Positions 49,002 to 62,254 of a DNA stretch of 64,000 nt are shown piece by piece. Under the pieces are notes generated by a model that searched no databases, had not been told where the DNA came from, and saw only the letters and a list, made by a program, of their open reading frames with translations. Source of the stretch: Arthrobacter sp. (GTDB taxonomy: Bacteria > Actinomycetota > Actinomycetes > Actinomycetales > Micrococcaceae); the NCBI GenBank assembly GCA_031277795.1, contig JAITLQ010000017.1, positions 62,001 to 126,000 of the forward strand, in the 5' to 3' direction. Both the position numbers and the translations under genes were made by a program. Positions within the stretch are counted from its first letter, which is position 1, and each line of letters opens with the position of its first letter.

Positions 49002-50999
49002 TCACCTCACTGGGACTGTGTTCTTGGTGAAGTAGGCACCGGTGCTACTGGTGTTTCCGGTCGCGTCTAGGTATCGGACCACAAATTGCCGTTCATCTAG
49101 CACGTAGAGGGGTAGGGAGATAGTGCCGATTCCTGCAGGATCGAGAGTGGTACGTAGGGGGAGAAGGTGCGGGATGGGCTTGAGCGTCGAAGCATCGACG
49201 ATCTCGATTCGCTGCCCTGGAAGGCCCTGAAATTTCACGGTGCTGCGGTTGAGGAATCCGACTGTGCGCTCGAGGACTGCTGGCGTGATGGGTACGTCAC
49301 GTTCCAACGGTGTGTCAGCTGGATCAGTGCGCAACGAAGCAGAGAGTACGGGTGTCTTGACGGGGTCTAGCAATGCCAACTGCACGATCCAGTCTCCGTT
49401 TTCGGCCACAGTGGCATTGCCTAGATCACTGTCAGTCGAGCTGGACACGGTGACGATGGCACCTGCTGTCCCGGTGCCCTGGAGACAGGTCGCGGTGGGC
49501 GTGCACTGGTGCGCGGAGAATGTGGTGGTGTCGGGGACGTTTTCCAGGAGCAAAGTGGACTTCGCTCCTGCGTTCTGCTCACCCCTCGTTGATGTGAGGT
49601 AGATGTCCAGCTGCCCGGGTGGAACTCGGTCCAGCTCAATCTCCCAGTTCTCGCTGGGGCTTTCCGGGACCAACGTCGTTCTGCCGAGTTGCTGGGCATG
49701 AATTGCCAACTCGGAGTCGTGTGTGCGGTCGCCCTCCAGGCGAAGGGTTTGTGCCTCTGCGTTGTAGTCCCACCTGAGCAAGGTGGGTGCCTCCATCGGC
49801 GGCTCCGGGGGAGGTGTTGTCAGCACTTCGCTGCTGGGTGCCGTCGTTGTCAGCGAAGACGAGGAAGGTGCTGCATACGTCGGTGTCGGTGCAATGAATG
49901 GAGAACTGGTTGCAGGAGATGTCGTGCGCGTACTTGATGGGGGTTGGGGTGTTGGAGTTGAAGCTGGGTGTATGGGCGATATGGGGGCCTGAGTGTGCGC
50001 GGTAGTAGGCGACTGAGTGGGGGAGAGCGGCGCTGAACTGTGGGTCGCTGGCAGAGTGGAGTCGTTTGGTAGGCGCGGGGTGGCGATGATGCCGAGAACA
50101 ACTGTGGCGCCAGCGAGAGTTGCTCCGGCGGCGGTGAGCGTCACTAGGACCGCCTTACTTGAGCTAACTGCGGCGGTTTTTGCGAGGGCTGAAGTGCTCG
50201 GAGCAGTGAAAAGTTGGCTGGAAGGGGCGAGCCAGGCCCGTGTTCCTTCGAGTCCGAGAATGGATGGGATGAGCACGAACCCGAGCCGTTGGCTGCTGAT
50301 CAGGGCGTCCTGAGTCGCTCGTGAGCACACCGGACAGCCGGCAATGTGTTCCTGAACAAAGGTTGTCTTCTCAGAGCTGGCGCTGCCAGCTTCTACAGAA
50401 CCGACGAGTGAGAGTACAGCCTTGCACAGGGGTGCGGTGGTAGGGGACTCAACATGTTCTTGAATCCACTGGGCTCGTAGGCCGACGCGTGCGCGTTTGG
50501 CTAGGTTGGTCAGGCCGTTGGGCGATGTGCCCATGAACTTCGCGACCTGGCGGGGTTTGAGCTCTTCGACGTGCAGGTACCACAGGACGGCCTGCCACCG
50601 CCGCGGCAACCGGCTGAAGGCCTGTGAGAGAAGCGAGGTGCGAACCTGTAGGTCATGGCTGCTGGCAGGGTTCACTTCGGCGTCGTCGTCCGGCAACTCT
50701 GGAAGCGCAGCTGGGTCGGCGGCGAATTCGTGCGCCTTGCCGGAGGCGGCATTTCTCACTGCTGTGTAGAGGTACGCCCGAACTGAGTCCCGCGGACCCT
50801 TTCCAGCATGGAGAGCTTGGAGCGTGTTGGTGAAGGCTTGTGAGACGAGATCTTCAGGGTCTTCGTTTCGCGCGTAGATCTTCGCCACACGTAGGACTGC
50901 TGCCGAATGTCGGGCCCACAGGACACCGAACGCATCGTTGTCCCCTTGCCTGACACGGTCTAGCAGTTCGCCATCCGAGATCAAGGAAGCGCCTTTCAC
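49002..50999 (-). CDS. ECF-like sigma factor fused to zinc finger, membrane and extracellular tail
   Basis: A 665-residue fusion. Residues 8-85 are sigma region 2 (EDLVSQAFTNTLQAL) and about 115-165 sigma region 4 (LPRRWQAVLWYLHVEELKPRQVAKFMG). About 216-223 has a HxxxCxxC zinc motif (HIAGCPVC) as in anti-sigma factors. A single membrane helix spans about 280-306, followed by a Ser/Thr/Pro-rich linker (about 310-400) and an extracellular region with beta-sandwich-like repeats to the end. So sigma, anti-sigma-like and sensor parts are in one chain, as known for some actinobacterial ECF groups. The GTG start follows GAGGCG. The surface-protein gene lies directly upstream. Confidence 0.88.
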   Translation of the reverse strand: MKGASLISDGELLDRVRQGDNDAFGVLWARHSAAVLRVAKIYARNEDPEDLVSQAFTNTLQALHAGKGPRDSVRAYLYTAVRNAASGKAHEFAADPAALPELPDDDAEVNPASSHDLQVRTSLLSQAFSRLPRRWQAVLWYLHVEELKPRQVAKFMGTSPNGLTNLAKRARVGLRAQWIQEHVESPTTAPLCKAVLSLVGSVEAGSASSEKTTFVQEHIAGCPVCSRATQDALISSQRLGFVLIPSILGLEGTRAWLAPSSQLFTAPSTSALAKTAAVSSSKAVLVTLTAAGATLAGATVVLGIIATPRLPNDSTLPATHSSAPLSPTQSPTTAHTQAPISPIHPASTPTPQPPSSTRTTSPATSSPFIAPTPTYAAPSSSSLTTTAPSSEVLTTPPPEPPMEAPTLLRWDYNAEAQTLRLEGDRTHDSELAIHAQQLGRTTLVPESPSENWEIELDRVPPGQLDIYLTSTRGEQNAGAKSTLLLENVPDTTTFSAHQCTPTATCLQGTGTAGAIVTVSSSTDSDLGNATVAENGDWIVQLALLDPVKTPVLSASLRTDPADTPLERDVPITPAVLERTVGFLNRSTVKFQGLPGQRIEIVDASTLKPIPHLLPLRTTLDPAGIGTISLPLYVLDERQFVVRYLDATGNTSSTGAYFTKNTVPVR

Positions 51000-51054
51000 G
51001 TCGCCTCGCCGGCATCCGGCGAGGGCAGAGGGTTGAAGGAAACAGCTGAAGGGG

Positions 51055-51090
51055 GGGGCGGCGCACCGGCTGATGCCGGTGCGCCGCCCC
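51055..51090 (-). terminator. Strong terminator after the surface-protein gene
   Basis: Perfect 15-bp arms GGGGCGGCGCACCGG and CCGGTGCGCCGCCCC with a 6-base loop, on the minus strand followed by a run of C residues. It lies between the surface-protein stop (51117) and the sigma start (50999), so the sigma gene gets reduced read-through or its own promoter. Confidence 0.8.
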
Positions 51091-51116
51091 ATCAGACGAC
51101 CAGGTGAGTACTACTC

Positions 51117-52589
51117 CTACTGCTGGTCGTCAGCAGGGACCGGTTCCTCGCGGCGCCGGCGCGTGGCCAGCACGACGATCAGACCAGCGGCCAGGAGTGC
51201 GGCAGCGGCCGAGCCGATCGCGACACCACCAAATCCGGTGTGAGCCAGATCCACGTCAGGAGTGACTCCAGGCGCAGGCTGCCCCGGCACAGGGGTGGAC
51301 GGAGTCCCCGGAGTCACCGGCTCTTCTTCGACGGTGACGGTCTGGGCGTTGTCGTCGATGTCCTTGTGGGAGGCGACGACTTCGCCCTTGGAGAGGAGGT
51401 CTTCGAAGGCCACGAGGGTGGAGCCGGCGTGGCCGGCGGGGACGGTGAAAACCACGTCGACGGTGCCCGAGGCGGTTTCGGGGGTGAAGGTGGTTTCGCC
51501 GGTGATGCCGGTGCCCTTGCCCGTGGCCTTGTCCATGAGTTCGCCCTTGAGGGTGTACTCCTGGCCGGGGGTGAGGTTCTCGTACTTCACGGCGTCGACG
51601 ACCTTGCCGCCGTCCCAGGAGATGACCTTGTCGCCATCGGCCTGGTCGGTTGCGGACGTGCCGATGCTGGGCTTAGCCGCAGTAGCAGTGAGATCGAGCT
51701 TGCCCGTGACCTTGTTCTGGTCGACGGTGATCATGTTCTGCGGACGCTGTGCACTCGTCCAGCCAGTGGGCTCGCGCATCATGACCACTGCCGCAGGTGC
51801 CAGGCGCGAAGCCTCGACATGGACATCCGTCGCGGTGATGTCAATGGGAAGAGTGAACTTGCCGTTTGCATCGGTCGTCACTTCAGCGGTTGCTGGCGTG
51901 GCGCCGGTGACAGCCACGTCAATTTCGCGCTGGGGAACCGGTGTACCGGTGGCTGCAAGCAGCGTTCCAGTAACGGCTGTAGTCTCGCCCACAGCAGGAG
52001 CGACCGGGTCCGCACTCAATTCCAGGGTCCAAGGACCGTGATACTTCGCAGCATCAGCCTTGAGCTGGTTGTAGATGGCCGGGACGCTGCCGGGCTTCTG
52101 GCCGCTTCCGATCGGATCCTCGTTCGCAGCGAAAGCGCTGAGCGCCCAGTTCGGGTCATAGACGCTCGTGCCGCCGGAATTCGTCCAGTCATGCACGATC
52201 ACGGATACGGCGGCGGCGTAGTCGTCGGCGACCTTGCCCTTCTGTTTGATCACCTTGTGGCTGGCTTCAGAGACGATGTAAGCCAGGTCGGCCATGCGCG
52301 AGGCGGACAGTGCAGAGCCATCGTCACGCGTGAGCAGTCGAGGGGCCGTCCATCCTGTCGCGTTTTCAGGCTCGGGAGCCCAGATCGACGCGCACCAAGC
52401 CTCCAGCCCATCAGGCATGCGGTAGGTGCCTTCCCAGTTGGGAGTCCCGCCCTGCCAGAGATAGCCACGGACCTCACCGTTGGTGCCGTCAGCTTGTGCT
52501 GCTGGTGCGAGAGCAACCGCGCCTCCGAGGGTGGCCAGCGCTGTGCTTACTACGGCGACGGAAGCCGCCCATTTTCTACGTGTTCTCAC
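51117..52589 (-). CDS. Sortase-anchored VaFE-repeat surface protein
   Basis: A 490-residue cell-wall protein. A signal peptide (1-34, ending AQA) is followed by a thioester-type or adhesin head region (about 35-185; EAWCASIWAPE contains the only mature Cys, a candidate thioester residue). Then come Ig-like stretches (about 190-310), a VaFE domain with VAFEDL near 395, a Pro-rich spacer, and the sorting signal LAHTG (about 446-450), a membrane helix and ATRRRREE. LAHTG replaces LPXTG, a variant usual for class E sortases of actinobacteria. The GTG start follows AAAGG. No sortase gene is in the window. Confidence 0.88.
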   Translation of the reverse strand: MRTRRKWAASVAVVSTALATLGGAVALAPAAQADGTNGEVRGYLWQGGTPNWEGTYRMPDGLEAWCASIWAPEPENATGWTAPRLLTRDDGSALSASRMADLAYIVSEASHKVIKQKGKVADDYAAAVSVIVHDWTNSGGTSVYDPNWALSAFAANEDPIGSGQKPGSVPAIYNQLKADAAKYHGPWTLELSADPVAPAVGETTAVTGTLLAATGTPVPQREIDVAVTGATPATAEVTTDANGKFTLPIDITATDVHVEASRLAPAAVVMMREPTGWTSAQRPQNMITVDQNKVTGKLDLTATAAKPSIGTSATDQADGDKVISWDGGKVVDAVKYENLTPGQEYTLKGELMDKATGKGTGITGETTFTPETASGTVDVVFTVPAGHAGSTLVAFEDLLSKGEVVASHKDIDDNAQTVTVEEEPVTPGTPSTPVPGQPAPGVTPDVDLAHTGFGGVAIGSAAAALLAAGLIVVLATRRRREEPVPADDQQ

Positions 52590-52703: not shown

Positions 52704-52723
52704 TGCCGTAATTATAGTCAACT
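52704..52723 (-). promoter_or_regulatory. Likely promoter of the surface-protein gene
   Basis: On the minus strand a perfect TATAAT (52716-52711) puts the transcription start near 52704, about 115 bases before the surface-protein start. TTGACT immediately upstream overlaps it and is too close to be its -35 box. Confidence 0.5.
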
Positions 52724-52739
52724 TGTGAGATAGATCACA
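52724..52739. promoter_or_regulatory. Perfect CRP/GlxR palindrome
   Basis: TGTGAGATAGATCACA matches TGTGA-6N-TCACA exactly, and also the GlxR form with central TA. It sits between the surface-protein gene and a plus-strand membrane-protein gene. Relative to the TATAAT of the former it covers about -20 to -36, a position expected to repress that promoter or to act on the other strand. A second inverted pair TGTCA/TGACA is at about 52768-52795. Confidence 0.75.
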
Positions 52740-61942: not shown

Positions 61943-62254
61943 GGGGGACTGCTCCTCAGGAAGGCGACGATGACTTGCTTCGAGAATCGATGCAACTCAA
62001 ATTAATACCGAACAAAGCCCCGAGCGCAATGCGCAGAAGGTCACAAATGTGTCACGGGCGTCACAGTCGCTCGGCGCGGGGGAGGGTGTCTGGTGCCCTA
62101 CGGCGGTGGGGTGCGTCACGAGGCGGGCGCGCGTGGGCGCGGGAAACGGCCCGCCCCGTCGCGGCGCGGGCGGGGTGGGGGGAGGGTGTGCTGAGGCGGG
62201 GGAGCGCTGCGGGTGAGGTGGAGGCGGCGGTGAAAGGGCCGCTCGGGGCGGGCT
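61943..62254. other. Intergenic region upstream of the peptide importer operon
   Basis: Holds the promoter of the receptor gene. AT-rich AACTCAAATTAATACC is near 61995, and GACTTGC...GCAACTC is an imperfect inverted repeat at about 61973-61999 that shares ACTTG and a TTCGA element with the palindrome before the ROK repressor. The 62050-62254 part is GC-rich and shows nothing. Confidence 0.4.

Follow-up and report, generated by a model that had tools for sequence, protein, structure and literature searches.

Background

In Clostridium thermocellum the SigI-RsgI system uses an extracellular sensor of surface material to control surface-machinery genes. RsgI undergoes autoproteolysis (PMC10766802). 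The extracytoplasmic function (ECF) groups ECF48, ECF52 and ECF53 are known fused sigma factors with a zinc finger, a transmembrane (TM) helix and an outer domain (PMC5826349, PMC8999054). The ECF52 member SCO4117 of Streptomyces coelicolor carries a carbohydrate-binding module, and its proteolytic release has been proposed (PMC5826349, PMC8999054). For IutY (ECF243) of Pseudomonas putida, activation by Prc/RseP proteolysis has been demonstrated (PMC8999054). Here we describe a fused ECF sigma factor gene and the adjacent gene for a sortase-type surface adhesin in a 64,000-nucleotide stretch (the window) that corresponds to positions 62,001 to 126,000 of contig JAITLQ010000017.1 (assembly GCA_031277795.1, Arthrobacter sp.). 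The genus is most likely Galactobacter, and this name is used for the window genome and for the genomes of the same genus. The relatives named in our profile scan belong to a family that we take to be Micrococcaceae.

Among one-component signalling proteins, few are as poorly understood as the fused ECF sigma factors; for the actinobacterial groups, a review singles out SCO4117 as the best-understood case. We lean towards reading the window pair as an adhesin-coupled one-component signalling module, in which a surface signal would release the sigma factor to transcribe its own gene and that of the adhesin. Sequence comparison establishes the fused architecture, the recurrence of the pairing and a promoter dyad shared by Arthrobacter and Paenarthrobacter relatives.

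Results and discussion

A sigma factor, an anti-sigma-like segment and an adhesin-like putative sensor in one chain

The window protein passes the sigma70-ECF superfamily model TIGR02937 (46.6 bits against a cut-off of 42.9) and the Pfam cut-off for Sigma70_r2 (E = 3e-6). The matches to Sigma70_r4_2 (5.6e-4) and zf-HC2 fall under the Pfam cut-offs, and the latter is over the cut-off in most relatives scanned. A profile built from relatives of the protein matches solved ECF sigma factors among PDB chains, the best at 4e-15. In the 696-aa open reading frame (ORF), direct reading places the single TM helix around residue 314, and proline, serine and threonine make up 37% of the residues past it. 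The outer part has a Big_6 match (8e-7). An AlphaFold2 (AF2) model of moderate confidence (pLDDT 53) has helices in the sigma and anti-sigma part, a stalk lacking structure and roughly three beta modules. In Foldseek the N-terminal part matched SigE-RseA, AlgU-MucA and SigW-RsiW, and the outer part matched modules from the adhesins Bap and SiiE and from an ice-binding adhesin. The first-pass annotation had read sigma regions 2 and 4, a HxxxCxxC zinc motif, one membrane helix, a Ser/Thr/Pro stalk and a large extracellular domain in this polypeptide, and had noted that fused ECF sigma factors are known in actinobacteria; all of this is borne out, with region 4 under its Pfam cut-off.

The gene upstream had been called a VaFE protein with an LAHTG sorting signal, and the profile matches agree. 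Its TQ domain scores 110.6 against a cut-off of 23.8 for PF18202 (9.4e-32) and 107.3 against 24 for VaFE_rpt NF033903 (5.9e-31), and it has relatives of solved structure among ester-bond adhesin domains, for example 4mkm. LAXTG is the signal of class E sortases (PMC5148588). The C-terminus of the adhesin has LAHTG followed by a hydrophobic stretch and a basic tail, and with three sortase genes in the window genome the protein has the features of a class E substrate. The AF2 model of the adhesin alone reaches a pLDDT of 39, so that a thioester domain at its N-terminus is suspected at most.

The pairing with adhesins is recurrent

Fused sigma factors are found in 41 of 100 family genomes (18 of 32 genera) and in 68 of 198 order genomes (27 of 72 genera). 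A degenerate scan of contigs succeeded with a three-row profile; one built from eight diverse sigma factors was too divergent. ORFs with sortase signals concentrate next to the sigma genes. Counted outward in 750-bp bins they number 11, 5, 1, 1, 6, 3, 1 and 0, and in the named genomes 2, 10, 1, 0, 1, 0, 0 and 0. In both sets combined, 28 lie within 1.5 kb of a sigma gene against 4.7 expected from the density at 1.5-6 kb, an excess whose significance is overstated because related loci are not independent.

The gene pair does occur in other genomes and also a second time in the window genome, where another contig carries a fused sigma gene directly downstream of a SpaA/Big_8 adhesin. Among genomes of the same genus, L015 has an LASTG adhesin followed by the sigma gene, L010 a Cna-B-like protein divergent from it, L017 SipW/TasA-like genes and an LVNTG protein downstream of it, and L014 an LAHTG protein two genes from a frameshifted sigma gene. 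Scored as a label on a sigma-domain tree with 113 rows, a sortase-anchored neighbour requires 12 changes, with at least 9 forced by well-supported branches; a count as low as 12 arose in 2 of 500 label shuffles. The approximately 12 changes, at least 9 of them forced, indicate that on this tree the pairing is recurrent and not a single inherited block. The partners include SpaA, Big_8, VWA, SdrD_B and DUF7507 types and one trypsin-like protein. A linkage specific to VaFE, as the first-pass annotation had stressed, was rejected because the partners vary and no homologue of the window VaFE protein was found in any sampled sigma locus; the pairing with adhesins as such recurs.

The chromosomal site is itself variable. 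Between the window genome and the sister species G002 the flanking proteins are conserved (amino acid identity 98% for ROK, 94.5% for a UPF0126-like protein, 90% for HigB and 86% for HigA), while the sigma proteins at the shared site are 32% identical and gene order and orientation differ. The window adhesin has no homologue at the corresponding G002 site, which holds a different sigma-adhesin pair. A third fused sigma gene, with a SipW/TasA set, is located in G001 close to the same UPF0126-like gene (86%). The GC content of the stretch, 0.61-0.64 against approximately 0.71, fits with exchange. A plasmid search returned only relatives under 60% identity. The variable site (window:45870-56520) contains a transposase fragment, a resolvase, a DUF1275 protein, the sigma-adhesin pair and a HigBA toxin-antitoxin.

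Such a setting could bring the two genes together by hitch-hiking, both being gained and lost in variable islands and adjacent without regulation. The low GC content, the nearby resolvase, transposase fragment and HigBA, and the many fused sigma factors without adhesin neighbours would all be expected from this. We nevertheless regard it as highly improbable, because the frequency of adhesins drops steeply with distance from the sigma gene and because in relatives the sigma and adhesin promoters have a fixed-spacing dyad in common.

A shared promoter dyad in Arthrobacter and Paenarthrobacter

Alignment of divergent Arthrobacter/Paenarthrobacter loci revealed a repeated element, the strict ECF-type dyad CGTCACGA-N15-CACT, which stands upstream of the sigma gene, of a divergent gene and of adhesin or pilin genes. 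In 2.3 Mb of loci there are 57 copies of the form GTCACGA-N15-CACT, against 0-2 for any other spacer length in the range 10-20; a Markov control gives approximately 0.3 per 1.2 Mb. The base before GTCACGA is C in nearly all sites. The dyad lies about 70 nt upstream of fused sigma starts (15 sites). At divergent LANTG, LASTG or LATTG adhesins (8 sites) it is in most cases about 75 nt upstream of the start, with a few sites at other distances. It also precedes LPxTG pilin operons (L056-L058) and a divergent gene of approximately 250-300 aa without a Pfam family. Four or more exact sites (4-6) occur in only 4 of 100 family genomes, and all four carry the sigma clade in question; in the other family genomes the rate is near that of the reversed-pattern control. 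Given its fixed spacing and autoregulatory placement, the dyad fits a -35/-10 pair of the sigma factor, and the fused sigma factor itself presumably reads it. De novo searches in other clades gave a CGTCAT-N15-GCGTCT-like pair in one (f18b) and were weak or uninformative in the rest.

The divergent gene (L204:5038-5859, with equivalents in L073, L056, L051, L053 and L064) has a weak GGDEF-like match in one member (E = 0.11) and may encode another component of the module.

Carrier genomes contain extra dyad sites elsewhere, and some fused sigma genes have other neighbours such as HtpX membrane-protease or catalase genes. Both observations would suit a general envelope-stress sensor that responds to proteases or wall damage and counts adhesins as only one of several targets. 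Adhesins are, however, the commonest recognisable surface-associated neighbour and they carry the dyad, which makes this explanation improbable in our view.

The window promoter and the intergenic hairpin

The adhesin gene is transcribed first and the sigma gene second, both on the minus strand within 49002-52589 (Table 1). A simple short-spaced operon of the two was rejected on account of the 16-bp hairpin between them. The 121-nt stretch that includes the hairpin has a minimum free energy of -58.4 kcal/mol (z -5). A search against Rfam gave no match. Because the hairpin separates the genes, the sigma gene is probably expressed by read-through or from a promoter that we do not see. ATG 51092 was rejected as the sigma start since it sits at the edge of the hairpin, and the true start is therefore probably TTG 50984 or GTG 50999. 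TTG 50984 yields MISDGELLDRV, which fits the relatives; one relative begins with MLSDLEILDKVRSGD, to which MISDGELLDRVRQGD of the window protein aligns.

Table 1. Features of the sigma-adhesin locus (window coordinates)
Feature	Position	Strand	Basis or remark
Fused ECF sigma factor gene	49002..50984	(-)	TTG start proposed, GTG 50999 alternative; ~660 aa
Extracellular beta-rich region, ~3 Ig-like modules	49005..49787	(-)	Big_6 at 49374-49502; AF2 (moderate confidence); Foldseek
Ser/Thr/Pro-rich stalk	49788..50075	(-)	Sequence; low-confidence unstructured stretch in AF2 model
Single TM helix	50079..50153	(-)	Hydropathy
Zinc anti-sigma-like domain, HIAGCPVC motif	50325..50426	(-)	PF13490 E = 0.0039 (below cut-off); Cys/Cys conserved in relatives
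Sigma region 4	50487..50630	(-)	PF08281 below cut-off; family profile; AF2 helices
Sigma region 2	50745..50921	(-)	Pfam PF04542
16-bp perfect GC hairpin between genes, then C-run	51055..51090	(-)	No canonical T-tract terminator called
VaFE / T-Q ester-bond surface adhesin	51117..52589	(-)	GTG start at 52589 after GAAAGG; signal peptide; 490 aa
LAHTG sorting motif (LAXTG, class E sortase type)	51234..51248	(-)	Sequence
TQ (VaFE) ester-bond domain	51330..51671	(-)	PF18202 9e-32; NF033903; relative of PDB 4mkm
TATAAT, possible -10 element of adhesin promoter	52711..52716	(-)	Sequence
CRP/GlxR-type palindrome TGTGATCTATCTCACA upstream of adhesin	52724..52739	(-)	Match to TGTGA-N6-TCACA

Several observations weigh against a coupling of the window genes. 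The window genome contains no exact CGTCACGA-N15-CACT dyad, and when Galactobacter upstream regions were scanned with mismatches allowed, no confident variant of it turned up at the window adhesin. The strong hairpin stands between the two genes, the CRP/GlxR site at the adhesin offers another regulator, and 96 of the 113 tree rows are fused sigma factors without a sortase-anchored neighbour.

TGTGA-N6-TCACA is the GlxR/CRP consensus (PMC7999487). Only nine such sites occur in the 3.6-Mb window genome, two of them exactly at the promoters of both sigma-paired adhesins, and 5 of the 11 CRP/GlxR sites across all sigma loci are in Galactobacter. These sites, together with the nearby TATAAT, the missing dyad and the hairpin, would fit an arrangement in which the Galactobacter adhesin is run by the housekeeping sigma factor and a CRP/GlxR-type regulator, the fused sigma factor controls other genes, and the sigma-adhesin wiring exists only in other genera. 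No full sigma70-type promoter was called at the window adhesin. We consider this arrangement unlikely. The second Galactobacter adhesin has TGTCAGAT-N15-CTCT upstream, with the 15-bp spacer of the dyad. This element is conserved in a sister genome and occurs only once in each of the two genomes; no confident counterpart was seen at the window adhesin. Moreover, the pairing survives cassette swaps, and control by CRP and by the sigma factor are compatible.

We infer that the window sigma factor controls the window adhesin, and go no further because the adhesin promoter has a CRP/GlxR palindrome in place of the dyad and the hairpin lies between the genes. The corresponding claim of the first-pass annotation, that the sigma factor may control the adjacent adhesin, is supported as far as relatives share an ECF-type promoter; for the window pair it stays a conjecture.

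Variation among fused sigma factors

Many fused sigma factors have no folded ectodomain; their Pro/Thr/Ser stalk terminates in a short Cys-X(6-9)-Cys motif such as CSWSPDIEC or CPLFPWWQC (L012:7621-9219(-), L017:7871-9385(-), L057:6618-8363(+) and L067:14609-16207(+)). This motif resembles a conserved tip with a sensor role. Those of L122, L123, L128 and L157 are 1300-1400 aa long with 12 cysteines past the first TM helix, several with DUF11-type outer domains, and three of the four are convergent with an LPXTG/LAXTG gene. In two Galactobacter genomes (L014:6521-8348 and L016:8006-8773) the sigma gene is broken between region 4 and the zinc motif, by a frameshift and by an in-frame TAG; sequencing error and loss are both possible.

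By eye, some fused sigma genes were seen beside HtpX-like (Kocuria) or catalase-like genes. An HtpX-like membrane metalloprotease gene directly adjoins the fused sigma gene in L011:8751-12004, L048, L050, L072 and L080 (Kocuria and other genera), and its product is a candidate protease for release of the fused sigma factor.

A model for a proposed adhesin-coupled module

In the model that we favour, the zinc anti-sigma-like segment of the fused protein would restrain the ECF sigma domain of the same chain at the membrane and keep it inactive, while the stalk and Ig-like modules probe the surface or the wall of the cell. Some signal at the surface, perhaps contact, mechanical load or a ligand, would lead to cleavage near the membrane, a step modelled on precedent (PMC8999054, PMC5826349). 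The freed sigma domain would transcribe its own gene and the neighbouring adhesin gene, and the cell would in this way tune the proteins on its surface. The adhesin promoter of Galactobacter may also be wired to a cyclic AMP-CRP/GlxR-type regulator, so that the output would combine carbon status with the surface signal.

More tentatively, and with doubt prevailing, the module may represent a widespread class in Actinobacteria. Its members would hold sensor, anti-sigma and sigma factor in one chain with an outer part of adhesin modules, would be autoregulated together with their own adhesin through a dedicated promoter, and would move from species to species as a cassette that includes the adhesin, at fixed chromosomal sites. 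The findings suggest a surface-responsive adhesin switch in a single polypeptide, by which these bacteria may use one protein both to sense surfaces and to regulate how sticky they are. The recurrent tie to sortase-anchored adhesins and the defined promoter motif in cultivable Arthrobacter/Paenarthrobacter name a target and give a direct reporter assay for sensing and cleavage.

Relationship to known systems

The window protein shares with ECF48, ECF52 (SCO4117) and ECF53, groups confined to Actinobacteria, the presence of sigma factor, zinc finger, TM helix, Pro-rich stalk and outer domain in one chain. As in ECF52, a zinc-finger anti-sigma segment follows region 4 and a TM helix leads into a Pro-rich C-terminal extension. 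Unlike ECF52, its outer part is Ig/adhesin-like: no carbohydrate-binding domain was found in the window protein, where Big_6 is the only outer Pfam match and the fold matches are adhesin Ig modules. The fused sigma factors described here also differ from ECF52 in being paired with sortase-anchored adhesins, and the published ECF52 promoter motif, CSGYN-17-SRHA, differs from CGTCACGA-N15-CACT. IutY is likewise a sigma factor fused to its own membrane anti-sigma, but it serves Gram-negative iron-siderophore cell-surface signalling. SigI and RsgI are separate proteins, whereas the window protein is fused. The adhesin resembles VaFE/T-Q ester-bond fibrillar adhesins (relatives of PDB 4mkm) in its TQ domain, signal peptide and sorting signal, and departs from them in having a single TQ domain, an LAXTG class E signal and an N-terminal domain without assignment. 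No description of the sigma-sortase-adhesin pairing was found in the open-access literature searched. The fused layout was already known; the adhesin-like outer modules, the recurrent adhesin partner and the dedicated promoter in relatives are new.

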